Assembly: GCF_003247215.1 (NCBI RefSeq) | Contig: NZ_QKAP01000059.1 | Location: 1-38,754 of the forward strand | DNA from: Malonomonas rubra | GTDB lineage: Bacteria > Desulfobacterota > Desulfuromonadia > Desulfuromonadales > Geopsychrobacteraceae | Direction of reading: 5' to 3' | DNA: 38,754 bases | In this document: piece after piece, positions 18,576 through 36,996 of the stretch | Position numbering within the stretch: position 1 is the stretch's first letter | How the letters are laid out: every line of letters starts with the position of its first letter | Program-made: the position numbers and the translations under genes | Notes under the pieces: model-generated | The model's database searches: none | Seen by the model: the letters and a program-made list of their open reading frames with translations, nothing else | Told to the model about the DNA's origin: nothing

Positions 18576-18614
18576 GAAACGCCCCCGAAAAAAATTCGGG
18601 GGCGTTTCTTTTTT
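18576..18614 (+). terminator. Intrinsic terminator of the hyp operon
   Basis: GAAACGCCCCCGAA pairs perfectly with TTCGGGGGCGTTTC across a five-A loop and is followed by a T-run. Confidence 0.92.
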
Positions 18615-18617
18615 AAT

Positions 18618-18684
18618 AAAAAAAGCCCGGTGATGGAGGGGGGGTATCACCGGGCTCCCAGATGAACAGGTCATCTGTTTTGTG
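18618..18684 (-). ncRNA. Candidate small RNA with C-rich loop
   Basis: The minus strand carries a compact transcription unit. Predicted to start near 18684, it has a hairpin CAGATGA/TCATCTG (18659-18665 and 18671-18677) and then a perfect 11-base terminator stem, AGCCCGGTGAT/ATCACCGGGCT, followed by seven T. The terminator loop on this strand is ACCCCCCCTCC, which could pair with GGAGG-type ribosome sites, as in C-rich-loop regulatory RNAs. There is no gene on this strand just upstream that needs a terminator: the kinase gene ends at 19119 and a plus-strand gene lies between. An alternative is a tandem terminator for hyp, since the second hairpin is followed by TTTTGTG on the plus strand. Confidence 0.45.
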
Positions 18685-18690
18685 TAATTT

Positions 18691-18720
18691 AGAGTACCCT
18701 ATTTGAAGTTTTGTAGTCAA
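18691..18720 (-). promoter_or_regulatory. Possible sigma-70 promoter of the candidate small RNA
   Basis: TTGACT (18715-18720) and TACTCT (18691-18696) are 18 bases apart on the minus strand. The -35 is good and the -10 weak. Confidence 0.35.
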
Positions 18721-18862: not shown

Positions 18863-19069
18863 ATGAAAATTTCTCAGGTCAAGGTCATCTATCTTGACGG
18901 CAGTACTGGCGTCGTTAGCAACGATGCTTTAGATGTCTTGATTGCGACTGGAAAGATCAAATCGTTCAAACGTACCGAAGGCTGGGTTAATATCGTACGC
19001 GATTGCGCAAAGTTGCGCGATTATCGAAATGCGAAAGATTATCCCGGGCCGGACAGGCGGGCTCCCTAG
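18863..19069 (+). CDS. Small hypothetical protein
   Basis: A 68-aa soluble protein, MKISQVKVIYLDGSTGVV and onward, preceded by GAGGGG six bases before the ATG. It has beta-strand-like segments (VKVIYLDGSTGVV, KSFKRTEGWVNI) and a charged tail ending GPDRRAP. I have an impression of similar short proteins with a -GP-(E/D)RR ending in Geobacter relatives, but I cannot name a family. No cysteines form a metal site and there is no signal peptide. It stands alone between the hyp terminator region and the convergent kinase gene. It probably encodes a real protein because of the ribosome site and typical codon use. Confidence 0.6.
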   Translation: MKISQVKVIYLDGSTGVVSNDALDVLIATGKIKSFKRTEGWVNIVRDCAKLRDYRNAKDYPGPDRRAP

Positions 19070-19118: not shown

Positions 19119-21020
19119 TTAGTGTAATTCCTGCCGCCCGATCGGGTCGGCGCTTCTGTGTTGGAGCCTGACCGGCAATATAATGCTAAAACAAGCCCCT
19201 GAAGCGGTGTTGATCACACCGATCTCCCCCTCATGATGCTCGATGATCCGATGACTGATGGGCAATCCCAGGCCGGTACCTTCTTCTTTGGTGGTAAAGA
19301 AGGGGTTGAAAATATTGCGCATCTGTTTCGGGGGGATGCCGCTACCGCTATCATGGATTTCAACCCGGACCGCCGGTTCACCACGCAGGCGGCTTTGGTG
19401 ACCGATAATCTTGATTTCCCCGCCCTTCGGCATTGCTTGGCGAGCATTGGAGATCAGATTGAGGAAAACCTGCTGTAGCTGCTCCGAATCCCCTTGCAGC
19501 TTCGGCAAATTTTCTTCCAGCTGCAGTTGTAAAGATATTTCTGCGTTTTGCAGCTTTTCTTCTTCCAGGGCAATGACCTTGTCGATGACTTCTTCAAGTT
19601 GGTATTGCTCAATGCAGAGCAGATGTTGCTTGGAAAAAGAGAGGATGTTATCGAGCATTTTTTCCAACCGTTCGGTCTCCTGCTGGATAATCTCCGCGTA
19701 CTTGTAGCTGGTATCAGTCTTGTCCAGCGACTTGGTCAGTCGTCGGGCAAACCCGCCTACCGAAACCAGCGGGTTTTTCAATTCGTGGGCAATTGATGCC
19801 GACATCTCACCAATGGTTGCCAATTTTTCACGCTGCAGCAACTGTTCCTGCGTTTCGCGCAGGCTCTGATGAGCGGTTTCCACCCGTTGCAGCAGCTGCG
19901 CGTTGTCGAGGGCGATCCCCGCTTGGCCGGCAAACATCTCCAGAAAACGCAGACGTTCTGCATCGATCGCTTCGCCGCTGTCGGCATTATCGACCGAGAG
20001 CACACAGAGAGTCCTACCGCGGCTGAGCAGGGGAACTGTGGCATGGTGACCTTTGTGTAAATACTTGCATAAAGGATCAACCAGGTCGGAATCCACCTGC
20101 TCCTTGGTAATCAGTATCGCTTTCTGCTCACGGGCGGCGATCGCCAGGCAGCTTTCGTTGGTTTCGATGTCAAGTCGCTGTTGCATGACTTCCTGTGAGA
20201 AGGGTGCCTCCCGTTGTCTTCGTTGCGCGTCTTCTGGGATCTTGATCTCCTGGGTATGGACCGGCGGTAGACCCTCCGGCAGCAGGTAGCTGACGCTCTC
20301 CCGGGTGACGCCGAGGATGCCCTGCATGGTACCGCTGCGCTGGTTGACCATAAACAGCATGGCGCGGTGAAAGCTGCCACCGTCGTGGGAAACCAGCAGC
20401 GACAGGATCAGGTGGAGCAACTCGTTCGGTGACAGGGTACTATGCAGTAGCTGAGTAATGCGGTAAAGCAACGACAAGCCCTGCAGCCTGCGGAAGTCGG
20501 AGGTTGAAACCTGGCGCAAGCGGGCCATGGTGACCAGCTGTTCGAAGGCTTGGGAGATTTGATAGGCGCAGGTCTGGAAAAATTGTTGTTGTTCACGGGT
20601 GAAAGTATTTTTCCTGTTCGGGCTACTGCCAAAAAGGCTGAGTGTGCCGAAATTGCGGTCATGAACCCGTAGCGGCAGCGAGTAGACCGAAGCCGGTATG
20701 TTTTTCAGCCGCTGTCCGGAAAGTGGTTGACGCAAGCAGTTTTTTCCCTGCTGCAGGGCCTCTGTGGCCAGTTGGCAGTCTATTTGTAAAAATAACAGCT
20801 TAAGAGCAGGATCGCTCGAGGAAGAAGCGCAGTAACAGGCATTCGGGGGTGGATTTCCGTAAAGGCGCGGACGGATAATGACGCCACAGACATCTTCGTA
20901 TTCGAGCAGCAGCTGTGTGGTTGACTGGCAGAGTGAATGTAAGCTGGTCGCAGAGTTAAGAGCTTGCCCCAGTTTTGAAAGCAGGGTCAGTTGTGCAAGT
21001 CGGCGGTTTGTTGCGGACAT
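19119..21020 (-). CDS. Soluble GAF-domain sensor histidine kinase
   Basis: A 633-aa cytoplasmic kinase without membrane segments. Residues about 15-170 and 190-370 look like two GAF domains; the second includes LLSRGRTLCVLSVDNADSGE and GQAGIALDNAQLL. A coiled linker follows. The phospho-acceptor His is near 413 in MSASIAHELKNPL. The ATPase domain (about 480-615) has NLISNARQAM, DSGSGIPP, FFTTKEEGTGLGL. The frame is open to 21140, but the upstream part crosses a terminator. ATG at 21020 has AGGAAA eight bases before it and gives MSATNRRLAQ. It has no adjacent regulator gene; the nearest is the HoxA/HupR-like one about 4.3 kb away, so partnership is possible but unproven. Confidence 0.9.
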   Translation of the reverse strand: MSATNRRLAQLTLLSKLGQALNSATSLHSLCQSTTQLLLEYEDVCGVIIRPRLYGNPPPNACYCASSSSDPALKLLFLQIDCQLATEALQQGKNCLRQPLSGQRLKNIPASVYSLPLRVHDRNFGTLSLFGSSPNRKNTFTREQQQFFQTCAYQISQAFEQLVTMARLRQVSTSDFRRLQGLSLLYRITQLLHSTLSPNELLHLILSLLVSHDGGSFHRAMLFMVNQRSGTMQGILGVTRESVSYLLPEGLPPVHTQEIKIPEDAQRRQREAPFSQEVMQQRLDIETNESCLAIAAREQKAILITKEQVDSDLVDPLCKYLHKGHHATVPLLSRGRTLCVLSVDNADSGEAIDAERLRFLEMFAGQAGIALDNAQLLQRVETAHQSLRETQEQLLQREKLATIGEMSASIAHELKNPLVSVGGFARRLTKSLDKTDTSYKYAEIIQQETERLEKMLDNILSFSKQHLLCIEQYQLEEVIDKVIALEEEKLQNAEISLQLQLEENLPKLQGDSEQLQQVFLNLISNARQAMPKGGEIKIIGHQSRLRGEPAVRVEIHDSGSGIPPKQMRNIFNPFFTTKEEGTGLGLPISHRIIEHHEGEIGVINTASGACFSIILPVRLQHRSADPIGRQELH

Positions 21021-21037
21021 GGTTGTTGTTTCCTGCC

Positions 21038-21074
21038 AAAAAAAATCGGGAGCGCACATGCTTGTGCACTCCCG
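21038..21074 (-). terminator. Intrinsic terminator between the DksA-type gene and the kinase gene
   Basis: CGGGAGCGCACA and TGTGCACTCCCG pair with one mismatch and a four-base loop, followed on the minus strand by eight T. The kinase gene starts just after it. Confidence 0.85.
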
Positions 21075-21091
21075 ACCGATCAAGTTTGGTT

Positions 21092-21448
21092 TTAGCCGAT
21101 CCGCTCTTGTCGTTCTTCTTCTGTTTTGCAGTCGATGCACAATGTGGTGACCGGGCGGGCACGCAATCTTTCCACGCTGATTGGCTCTTCACAACTTTCG
21201 CACAGACCGAACTCACCGCTTTCAATCCGCCCCAGAGCTTCGCGGATTTTGTTGAGCAGTTTGCGTTCACGGTCTCGGATACGCAGCTCGAAGTTACGGT
21301 CCGATTCGAGGGACGCTCTATCCGTCGGATCTGGGAAGTTGGTTTTTTCTTCGGTCATTTCTGAAACCGTCTCACCAGCATTGTGCAGCAGGTCCTGCAT
21401 CTGCTTTTGCAACAGCTCTTTGAATTCAGCCAGAATCGTTTCTTCCAT
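21092..21448 (-). CDS. DksA/TraR-type zinc-finger protein
   Basis: RNA polymerase-binding regulator of the DksA family, 118 aa. A coiled N-terminal part contains the acidic tip DPTDRAS, matching the D-x-x-D-x-A tip of DksA. The zinc site is CESC plus CIDC in the FGLCESCEEPISVERLRARP block. It is shorter than E. coli DksA (151 aa), as is common in deltaproteobacteria. GGAAGG stands about nine bases before the ATG. It ends 18 bases before its own terminator. DksA proteins with ppGpp adjust ribosomal and biosynthetic promoters; which of several paralogues this is cannot be told here. Confidence 0.88.
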   Translation of the reverse strand: MEETILAEFKELLQKQMQDLLHNAGETVSEMTEEKTNFPDPTDRASLESDRNFELRIRDRERKLLNKIREALGRIESGEFGLCESCEEPISVERLRARPVTTLCIDCKTEEERQERIG

Positions 21449-33895: not shown

Positions 33896-34440
33896 AAGCA
33901 AACCCCTGTCTTAGGCGGAAAAATTCAATTCAGAGCCAACTCAGACATTTTGATCAATAATAGCATGTTCATATTTTTCTGACGCCTCCTTTGCGATGAA
34001 GATATCTAGGTTTTTTTTTGTCATATCGATCAACTCCGGAAGTTTTCTTTGTCTTTGTGCCTCGGCAGCGGGAGGGGGGGACTCAGCAACTCAAGTTTTT
34101 CAGCTCAATGTTACGGAAAGCTTTCTTTGGGGCTGTATTAAAAGATTTTTTTCGACAGCTTTTCAGGGTGGGAGATTCTGGAGAGAAAATGCCTAATCTG
34201 GATTGATGTATTGATCGAAATCTTCTATAGGCTGCGGCAGGATCTGCTTGAAAAGGAATAGCAACTCTTTTTATGCCTTTTTTTCAAAGCTTTTAATGCT
34301 GAGCGGGAAAATGTTGGCGTGTGCTACCTTGCCGGTTGAAATCTTCGCTAAAATTACAAAAAACCTTTTAAATCGCTTGTCTTCAGATTCTTTGGGTGCT
34401 AGCTTAGTACCCTTTTTCGTTCTATGTATAAGGACTGCTT
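33896..34440. other. Intergenic stretch between divergent genes, no gene recognised
   Basis: A T-rich 545-base gap. It must hold the promoters of the minus-strand transglutaminase operon and the plus-strand radical SAM gene. The short open frames in it lack ribosome sites and look non-coding. I see no convincing -35/-10 pair, hairpin terminator or repeat. Confidence 0.5.
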
Positions 34441-36996
34441 TTGAACAGAATTGATCAGACAGAGGCATTGATCCAAGTTACCAAACCGTCCCGTTATCTG
34501 GGTGGTGAACTTGGTTCGATCTGCAAAGTTGATAACGGTATCGATGTGCACATGGCTTTGGCCTTTCCCGATGTCTATGAAGTCGGGATGAGTCACATCG
34601 GTTTTCCGATTCTTTACCACATCCTGAATCGCCTAGAATGGGCTGCTGCCGAGCGGGTATATGCCCCCTGGCCCGATATGGCGCAGTGGCTGGTTGAGAA
34701 TGAACAGCCACTCTGCTCGCTTGAGACGAACCGGCCACTGACTGCGTTCGACATCATCGGTTTTACACTGCAGTACGAACTCAGCTACACCAATCTGCTG
34801 GGGATGTTGCAGTTGTCTGGACTACCGCTGCGCCGCGAGCAGCGGGACGAGTCGGCGCCGTTGATCGTGGTTGGTGGACCTTGCGCCTACAACCCGGAAC
34901 CTCTGGCCGATTTTTTTGATGTTGCCCTCATCGGTGACGGGGAAGAGGCGATCGTCGAACTGGCTGAAGCGGTTCGAGAAGCGAAAAAACATGACTGGAG
35001 TCGTCGGCAGCTGCTGGAAAAACTGGCGGCTTGCGAGGGCTTTTACGTGCCGGAGTTTTTTTCTGTCAGCTACCTTGCTGATGGCAGGGTGGCTGAAATC
35101 GCTCCGTTGCATGCCGGCTACCAAAAGGTCCGGCGTCGGTTTCTTACCGATCTGGAACCAGCCCCTTTTCCGACTCAGCCGATCATCCCTTTCATGCAGA
35201 CGGTGCACAACCGGGTGGCAATGGAGATCTCCCGCGGATGCACGCGCGGTTGCCGTTTTTGCCAAGCCGGTTATATCTACCGGCCGGTTCGAGAACGTAG
35301 CCCGGAGACGATCCGTAACTTGGTTCACCAGGCCTTGGAAAACTCCGGCTATGAAGAAATCTCGCTCCTGTCCCTATCTACTGGCGATTACAGCTGCATC
35401 GAGCCGCTGCTGCGCAGCCTGATGGCGGAGCATGCTGATGATCGAGTGGCTGTCTCTTTACCCAGCCTGCGGGTCGGCTCCCTGACCGAGGAGTTGATGG
35501 AGGAGGTGAAAAAGGTACGCAAGACCGGCTTTACCCTCGCCCCGGAGGCGGGCAGCGAACGTCTGCGGGCGGTGATCAACAAGGGGATCAGTGCCGCCGA
35601 TCTGCTGGAAACCACCGGTAACGCCTACCGGCTTGGTTGGCGCCTAGTCAAGCTCTATTTCATGCAAGGCTTGCCGACCGAAACCGACGAAGACCTGGAT
35701 GAGCTGGTCGAGCTGGCCGCGCAGGTTAAGCGTAGCGGTAGAGGGACTGGCGGTAACGATGTGAACGTTGCGGTATCGACTTTTGTGCCAAAGCCGCACA
35801 CGCCGTTTCAGTGGCAACCCCAGATCGGGATCGAAGAAACCCGGCGCAAACAGACTTTGCTGCGCGATGGGTTGCGGAAAAAGAAGTTGCGCTTCAAGTA
35901 CCATGAAGCAGAACTCTCCTTCCTGGAGGGGGTGTTTGCCAGGGGGGATCGGCGTTTATCGGCGGTTTTGGAAAGGGCGCTCGAACTCGGCTGTCGCTTT
36001 GATGGCTGGCGTGAGCACTTCGCTTTCGAAGCCTGGCAGCAGGCTTTCGCCGATTGTGGGATCGACCCGGAATGGTATCTGCGGGCACGAAATGTCGACG
36101 AAGTTCTGCCTTGGGATCACATCGACTGTGGGCTGCCGAAAAGTTTCTTTCGGCGTGAATTAGAAAAGGCTCTCTCCGGCTCCGCTACTACCGATTGTCG
36201 TGGCGACGATTGTCACGGGTGTGGGGTTTGCGATTTTGAGGCCTTGCGGATGCGTCTGACTGAAGCGGCTCAGGTCGAGCCGTTGACTAAAATAGAGAGC
36301 GCGCTCGAAGAGGGAAAGCCGGAGAATTTCACCCGGGTGCGGCTGAAGCTCGCCAAACGTGGTCGGGCACGGATGGTTGCCCACCTCGAGTATCTGAGCA
36401 TGTTTCAACGCGCGGTACGACGCACCGGGATGCCGATTCGCTTTTCAGGCGGTTTTCATCCGAAACCGAAGATCTCCTATCTGGAGGCCTTGCCGATGGG
36501 AGTCGCCAGCGAAGCGGAGCTGATCGACTTGGAATTGCTCTGTCCTGTCGATGTTGATCAGTTAGTGTATGATTTGAATGTTCAACTTCCGGATGGGTTC
36601 ACAGTTATTGAAGGGGAGGTCGTGCCTTGGAAATCGCCATCGCCATCGGTGTCGGTAGCTACCAGTTGTTATCGGGTGCCACTGCCGCAAACGGCTTCGG
36701 TCGACTTGGACACGCGGATCGCTGATTTTCTGGCGGCAAAGACGGTGATCGTCCGCAAGCAGAAAAAAGGGCGTGAAATCGAGTTTGATCTGCGTCCGGA
36801 TGTACAGAATATGACTTTGCTTGATGGCGAGTTGGAGCTGGAACTGAAAAAAGGCAGCCCGCTGCAGGTTGCCGCTTATCTGCTGGAAATGGACGTCGAG
36901 GAGATTCGGCGCTTGCAGGTTCGCAAGATCGGCATTACTCTTAAAGATTTAGCGGTGGACGCTGCGTCGGAAGACGCTCCTGCCGCAGATCAATAG
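34441..36996 (+). CDS. Radical SAM protein fused to DUF2344
   Basis: An 851-aa protein. An N-terminal domain like the B12-binding fold of radical SAM methyltransferases precedes a radical SAM core with CTRGCRFC near residue 267 (CxxxCxxC) and GGxG-type segments. A Cys-rich linker follows (CRGDDCHGCGVC, about 583-594). From about 620 comes the DUF2344 domain (KRGRARMVAHLEYLSMFQRA, FSGGFHPKPKISY). The family (TIGR03960 plus TIGR03936 types) is commonly next to rng, as here, and may modify RNA or ribosome-linked targets; the reaction is unknown. The start is TTG with AAGGA seven bases upstream. Confidence 0.92.
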   Translation: MNRIDQTEALIQVTKPSRYLGGELGSICKVDNGIDVHMALAFPDVYEVGMSHIGFPILYHILNRLEWAAAERVYAPWPDMAQWLVENEQPLCSLETNRPLTAFDIIGFTLQYELSYTNLLGMLQLSGLPLRREQRDESAPLIVVGGPCAYNPEPLADFFDVALIGDGEEAIVELAEAVREAKKHDWSRRQLLEKLAACEGFYVPEFFSVSYLADGRVAEIAPLHAGYQKVRRRFLTDLEPAPFPTQPIIPFMQTVHNRVAMEISRGCTRGCRFCQAGYIYRPVRERSPETIRNLVHQALENSGYEEISLLSLSTGDYSCIEPLLRSLMAEHADDRVAVSLPSLRVGSLTEELMEEVKKVRKTGFTLAPEAGSERLRAVINKGISAADLLETTGNAYRLGWRLVKLYFMQGLPTETDEDLDELVELAAQVKRSGRGTGGNDVNVAVSTFVPKPHTPFQWQPQIGIEETRRKQTLLRDGLRKKKLRFKYHEAELSFLEGVFARGDRRLSAVLERALELGCRFDGWREHFAFEAWQQAFADCGIDPEWYLRARNVDEVLPWDHIDCGLPKSFFRRELEKALSGSATTDCRGDDCHGCGVCDFEALRMRLTEAAQVEPLTKIESALEEGKPENFTRVRLKLAKRGRARMVAHLEYLSMFQRAVRRTGMPIRFSGGFHPKPKISYLEALPMGVASEAELIDLELLCPVDVDQLVYDLNVQLPDGFTVIEGEVVPWKSPSPSVSVATSCYRVPLPQTASVDLDTRIADFLAAKTVIVRKQKKGREIEFDLRPDVQNMTLLDGELELELKKGSPLQVAAYLLEMDVEEIRRLQVRKIGITLKDLAVDAASEDAPAADQ

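Follow-up and report, generated by a model that had tools for sequence, protein, structure and literature searches.

What is encoded on the minus strand between the convergent hypE-type gene of this Malonomonas rubra DNA and the small plus-strand ORF beyond it? The initial annotation had proposed a compact small RNA with a C-rich, anti-Shine-Dalgarno loop, and the parts it named (TTGACT-N18-TACTCT, a hairpin, a perfect 11-base terminator and seven T) are all present in the minus-strand sequence of the window, the whole stretch of 38,754 nt analysed here. It was also right that no minus-strand gene lies immediately upstream: the first ORF listed there is a plus-strand one (18863-19069), beyond which comes a minus-strand histidine kinase gene (19119-21140). 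The features of the locus are the following.

18691..18720, minus strand: sigma-70-like promoter TTGACT-N18-TACTCT, with 8 of 12 consensus matches
18720-18715 and 18696-18691, minus strand: the promoter boxes TTGACT and TACTCT, with a spacer of 18 bases, read from the sequence
18618..18684, minus strand: predicted sRNA, about 67 nt long, with putative ends and a start at about 18684
18616-18687, minus strand: match of the covariance model R2 to the RNA, 74.5 bits
18659..18677, minus strand: 5' hairpin CAGATGA-CCTGT-TCATCTG, whose paired positions covary
18618..18656, minus strand: terminator hairpin of 11 perfect pairs with seven T, from sequence, folding and covariation
18656-18646, minus strand: 5' arm of the terminator stem, AGCCCGGTGAT, read from the sequence
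18645-18635, minus strand: terminator loop of 11 bases, ACCCCCCCTCC, read from the sequence
18634-18624, minus strand: 3' arm of the terminator stem, ATCACCGGGCT, read from the sequence
18624-18618, minus strand: terminator run of seven T, read from the sequence
18635..18645, minus strand: proposed seed, formed by the 11 loop bases ACCCCCCCUCC, the complement of GGAGGGGG ribosome sites, from loop conservation, duplex energy and site counts
18576..18614, no strand assigned: separate hairpin that resembles a terminator in both directions and belongs to the convergent hypE-type gene, not to the RNA, read from the sequence

The 75-nt strand folds with an energy of -29.6 kcal/mol, compared with -13.4 (sd 2.7) for shuffled sequences (z = -6.0), and none of 200 shuffles folded as well. 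A generic promoter and terminator scan of the window listed neither the promoter nor the terminator of the RNA, because 8 of 12 matches score below the limit of the scan and the loop is longer than it allows; the plus-strand terminator-like site that it reported at 18659-18677 is the 5' hairpin of the RNA on the opposite strand.

The simplest alternative is an ordinary terminator or palindromic repeat that yields no RNA product and in which the C-rich loop is incidental. A perfect terminator standing next to the convergent gene's own terminator would fit this, as would the many weak Rfam matches that the window gave, which are to be expected of tandem hairpins. No family of Rfam release 15 reached its gathering cut-off in the window, and a known Rfam family was rejected as the identity of the RNA; anti-hemB (RF02837; 34.1 bits, cut-off 49.5) and ncr1175 (RF02450; 42.8 bits, cut-off 60) are weak tandem-hairpin matches that run into the hypE terminator.

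Conservation beyond the window argues for an RNA. A DNA search of 60 genomes, including the window's own, gave a match in 21; the best match covers all or part of the RNA in 20 of these, often the terminator half only, and falls on the adjacent hypE terminator in G050. When 17 copies (16 distinct) were aligned without a model, 95.9% of cells were paired, compared with 86.1% after shuffling, and changes on both sides were seen in 11 of the 20 pairs of the two helices. A first covariance model, R1, was built from these copies and found further ones in the order; most of the weaker matches that were read share the loop, with stems that differ in sequence. A larger alignment of 77 rows (72 distinct) was fitted to the model and is hence biased towards it, a bias of which the 17-copy alignment is free; here, 92.7% of cells were paired (61.2% shuffled), both-side changes were found in 19 of 20 pairs, and the covariation score was 0.735, as against 0.188 for shuffled and at most 0.117 for slid alignments. 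For the 5' hairpin, both-side changes occurred in six of seven pairs among the 17 copies and in all seven among the 77 rows. The C-rich loop is conserved above this changing stem: the hairpin finder returned [A/C/T]CCCCCCCTCC or TCCCCCCCCTCCT in 65 of the 77 copies, and the remaining 12 comprise ten C/T-rich variants and two rows in which it chose another hairpin although the loop is present. Upstream of 40 of 74 copies lies a promoter-like sequence with at least 9 of 12 consensus matches, where 5.1 would be expected from shuffles (two rows were dropped as too short and one for lacking the loop pattern; the window copy has 8). The family therefore combines covarying hairpins and a T-run terminator with what appears, judged by consensus alone, to be its own promoter. 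The covariation that had been suggested as a check, with a conserved loop and compensatory stem changes, is thus found in related genomes, and the hairpins are conserved outside the genome of the window.

The model R2, itself built from many of the sequences that it found, matched 116 of 136 Desulfuromonadales genomes, with one to six matches in each, including all 44 genomes of the window's family, Geopsychrobacteraceae. It had no match in the 14 genomes of family f4, where R1 gave one weak match of 35.7 bits, on both strands, in G122; this was taken as chance, as R2 found none there. In a draw of 395 genomes from the phylum, with 12 candidates scored per genome, R2 matched all nine genomes of the order and none of the eight listed genomes of the class's other orders, and 12 of the 378 other genomes were matched weakly (31-42 bits). 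Near the match in four of these 12 loci, one of the two strands carries a C4TCC run, and such loci are possibly look-alikes or distant relatives.

A pattern scan returned 45 sites in 44 stretches, many from other phyla included, with a stem of at least nine pairs in 26. About eight of these 26 long-stem hairpins, with T-runs, lie in records of other groups, such as Caulobacter, Planctomycetaceae, Raoultella and Bradyrhizobium (L033, L044, L045, L048, L050, L065, L068 and L072), and may be unrelated sRNAs that share this design. Their sporadic occurrence in unrelated bacteria would also be compatible with a mere terminator hairpin. Plasmid and phage collections held no similar DNA, and viral contigs no exact match of the pattern, which speaks against a repeat and leaves a mobile origin of the locus unsupported. 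Set against the promoter signal, the covarying 5' hairpin, the loop kept over changing stems, the order-wide spread and the target match described below, the view that the locus is a terminator or repeat lacking a product seems to us scarcely tenable.

Of 21 loci viewed, 10 (three from the window's genus group, seven from g5) have a gene that looks hypE-like by eye adjoining the RNA or separated from it by one gene; the intervening gene in L082 has a Rubrerythrin match. In the window, the hypE-type gene carries AIRS domains (Pfam). The 68-codon ORF on the other side (18863-19069, plus strand) has no Pfam match, and similar ORFs, again by eye, adjoin the RNA in several relatives.

If the locus encodes an RNA, which messages would it bind? 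Ribosome sites of the hyb and hyp genes had been put forward. Among the window ORFs of at least 140 codons, the only ones scored, no ribosome site has more than six consecutive loop-complementary bases, and the genes for the NiFe-hydrogenase large subunit and the HypB-, HypD- and HypE-type proteins (Pfam) have three to four. This target set was rejected; the targets that emerged are genes of natural competence located elsewhere. The complement of the terminator loop is GGAGGGGG, and six genomes were searched for this sequence followed by ATG within 2-9 bases, which gave 94 matches (per-genome counts), compared with 36 for a reversed control pattern. Site-bearing orthologues common to several of the six genomes encode RadC, ComM, DprA, an integron integrase and an AddA-like helicase; two further shared pairs are, by eye, seemingly internal to longer genes.

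The 27 distinct GGAGGGGG sites of the complete genome G013 were all read, and 13 of them open an ORF of at least 200 codons. Six of these 13 ORFs encode an integron integrase, RadC, DprA, a ComF-like protein, an ATP-dependent DNA ligase and ComM. The genes radC, comM, dprA and that of such a ligase are members of known competence sets. Others lie outside competence: at L328, L330, L340 and L342, GGAGGGGG precedes genes for a multihaem cytochrome, a pyruvate:ferredoxin oxidoreductase and an IS200-type transposase, with a second transposase recognized by eye. Further site-bearing ORFs encode a GNA1162-type lipoprotein, an ice-binding-type protein and a response-regulator-like product.

The predicted duplex between loop and site has an energy of -19.9 to -22.5 kcal/mol at six sites, two of which belong to broken genes of the window's own genome, compared with -6.2, -6.7 and -12.3 kcal/mol at three sites of f4, the family without the RNA, and -9.5 kcal/mol at a made-up ordinary site.

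We then compared gene starts across genomes by the longest loop-complementary stretch, with a threshold of at least seven bases. Starts were read at 70 places for comM (30 loci, 40 regions), 50 for dprA (30 loci, 20 regions) and 30 loci for radC, and ORFs that had no start codon in range were excluded. Genomes with R2 E-values of 1e-6 to 1e-5 were regarded as uncertain and counted apart, and those above 1e-5, some with weak matches, as lacking the RNA. In RNA-bearing genomes outside the discovery six, the threshold is reached by 67 of 83 comM, dprA and radC genes (comM 32/39, dprA 20/25, radC 15/19), as against 4 of 286 other genes, drawn from the neighbourhood of the RNA or of a comM, dprA or radC gene in RNA-bearing genomes, discovery genomes included (4/260 when those are left out). 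With the discovery genomes, the target counts become 35/42 for comM, 23/28 for dprA and 16/20 for radC. In genomes with no R2 match or with an E-value above 1e-5, only 1 of 39 target genes reaches it (comM 0/15, dprA 0/19, radC 1/5), as does 1 of 29 other genes. Judged by sequence complementarity, the RNA would be able to pair with the leaders of several DNA-uptake genes.

This contrast between gene classes bears on the possibility that the conserved sRNA is a general mimic of the anti-Shine-Dalgarno tail of 16S rRNA, damping all strong GGAGG sites, with competence genes merely the most sensitive. In its 3' half the loop reads CCUCC, identical to the anti-Shine-Dalgarno core of the rRNA, and even with the made-up ordinary site part of the loop can pair. 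General damping is hard to reconcile with the scarcity of long complementary stretches in the other genes, and the G-run beyond the Shine-Dalgarno core extends pairing with the C7 loop when it should not improve pairing with the 16S tail. We consider such a mimic unlikely and prefer an RNA directed at a specific gene set.

Once the discovery genomes are set aside, the window's family gives the strongest signal, with 47 of 50 target genes in RNA-bearing genomes reaching the threshold; elsewhere it is weaker, with 20 of 33. With the discovery genomes included, the RNA-bearing families score 54/57 (f1), 5/6 (f17), 4/8 (f12), 3/5 (f5), 2/2 each (f2, f9 and f14) and 1/1 each (f11 and f21), and matches are shorter in f6 (0/3), f20 (0/2) and f18 (0/1). 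Where the RNA is lacking, the counts are 0/26 in f4, 0/5 in f18, 0/4 in f7, 0/2 in f13, 0/1 in f19 and 1/1 in f12. The sole exception is G075, a genome that is 59% complete and belongs to a genus in which ten other searched genomes have the RNA. Genomes with an uncertain R2 match gave 2/4 for comM, 2/2 for radC and 0/1 for dprA; two f3 genomes with only such a match have sites in all four starts. The comM of G100 and the radC of G062 have ordinary sites despite an R2 match. In a ComM tree of 67 sequences, the link between RNA and site amounts to two (on supported branches) to four independent pairs, with none to the contrary, and is not significant; the main evidence is therefore the contrast between gene classes within genomes. 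Fisher p-values, which take no account of relatedness, carry no weight in this comparison.

Alternatively, an RNA-binding protein, for example CsrA, could recognize the G-run sites, and the C-rich RNA would have nothing to do with them. CsrA recognizes a GGA motif, and GGA lies inside GGAGGGGGA. The protein exists in Geobacter (PMC11934962). Recognition by CsrA would leave unexplained the G run itself, a loop that is its complement and the joint absence of both in f4, and we hold it to be highly improbable.

Together, the promoter-like sequence, the stem compensation, the constancy of the loop and the matching ribosome sites support the small RNA with an anti-Shine-Dalgarno C-rich loop that was originally suggested. 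We predict, with a probability of roughly three in four, a multitarget trans-acting sRNA of about 67 nt that silences competence by covering ribosome sites. The gene on the minus strand, from about 18684 to 18618, would be transcribed into a trans-acting RNA, and its terminator loop C7UCC would pair with GGAGGGGG at the ribosome sites of comM, dprA and radC and, in some genomes, also of the integron integrase, the ComF-like gene and the ATP-dependent DNA ligase. Hfq is encoded in the genome and may help this pairing. By blocking ribosome binding, the RNA would keep natural transformation and the linked recombination genes off, and a fall in its level, on some lifting signal, would release the whole target set together. 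As the C-rich loop matches the unusual ribosome sites of DNA-uptake genes, the RNA probably holds them off until they are needed. The repressive direction is our deduction, and pairing might instead activate or stabilize the mRNAs of these leaders and so promote competence; this is very unlikely, since pairing would mask the ribosome site itself, which is usually repressive.

A broader reading, which we favour with less assurance, is that the order-wide RNA family acts post-transcriptionally as the master brake on natural transformation in Desulfuromonadales. Its near-constant C7UCC loop would read a GGAGGGGG code on comM, dprA, radC, the ComF-like gene, the DNA ligase and the integron integrase and thereby link DNA uptake with integron activity, having arisen independently of RocR, and genomes without the RNA would have ordinary Shine-Dalgarno sites. 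We know of no described competence regulator in Desulfuromonadales, an order that includes electron-transferring sediment bacteria. If the reading is true, the code from RNA to target is legible and predicts which species are transformable, and when, which suggests a route to genetic tractability for species of the order. DNA-uptake gene sets would then have a second example of sRNA control, probably of independent origin and joined here to the integron integrase.

By predicted function, we set the window RNA beside RocR of Legionella pneumophila, which would be its closest working analogue, without classing it as RocR. RocR is a trans-acting sRNA that pairs with several DNA-uptake mRNAs (comEA and pilus components) and represses them, requires the FinO-domain chaperone RocC and has four described targets (PMC9674577, PMC9977716). 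Like RocR, the RNA family of the window matches several DNA-uptake mRNAs, with repression predicted; unlike RocR, its proposed seed is the terminator loop, its targets would be comM, dprA, radC and others, and the genome has Hfq. The csRNAs of Streptococcus pneumoniae are several similar sRNAs under CiaR that control competence by pairing with the comC mRNA (PMC4507080), whereas the family described here matches DNA-processing genes. C-rich or anti-Shine-Dalgarno sRNAs are represented by LhrC (PMC4132741), RoxS (PMC8216469), sX13 (PMC3771888) and B11 (PMC12395582). Such sRNAs share a short, hairpin-rich form with C-rich pairing regions, and some are multicopy; they differ from the window RNA in belonging to other phyla or classes and in having other targets. 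The C-rich sRNA of PMC5869019 we take to be GsrN. No description of this RNA family was found among the matches listed in the titles and abstracts of open-licence PubMed Central.

The window's own genome (G000) departs from this pattern in its targets. At L205, L226 and L228, comM, dprA and radC are all broken, and their GGAGGGGG start sites remain. The comM gene keeps its start and GGAGGGGG site, but the stretch up to about residue 309 was not found and only C-terminal sequence follows; dprA breaks off after 24 codons, and radC has several stops and a frame change. There are no strong comM or dprA domain matches in this genome. The damage reflects either competence loss or an assembly effect: the organism, or the assembly, has lost the comM, dprA and radC targets while keeping the RNA, and with three genes broken, the RNA there has lost these partners or keeps others.

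At L152 (contig C146, 47880-47958), the same genome carries a second member of the RNA family, whose loop CCCCCCCCTCC is borne by a different stem; a third match, of 31 bits and with a different loop, was set aside. In the window, GGAGGGGGGG occurs at 34071 on the plus strand, in intergenic DNA before the gene at 34441, where neither strand has a hairpin comparable to that of the RNA. In family f18, L104, L118, L120 and L140 hold related units with a different loop (e.g. ACCCCTCCTCC) on a GTTCC stem; the f18 comM and dprA starts that were read have ordinary sites, so the targets in this family may differ. Tandem C-loop units are present at 11 loci of other families (L021, L022, L107, L108, L110, L114, L123, L126, L128, L131 and L146), where the second loop is shorter (e.g. 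TACCCCTCCT) and mostly stands on a GCCCCGTGA-type stem. At L143 (G133, minus strand, 2001-2081), the 5' hairpin also has a CCCCCCCTCC loop, and this RNA would thus bear two seeds.
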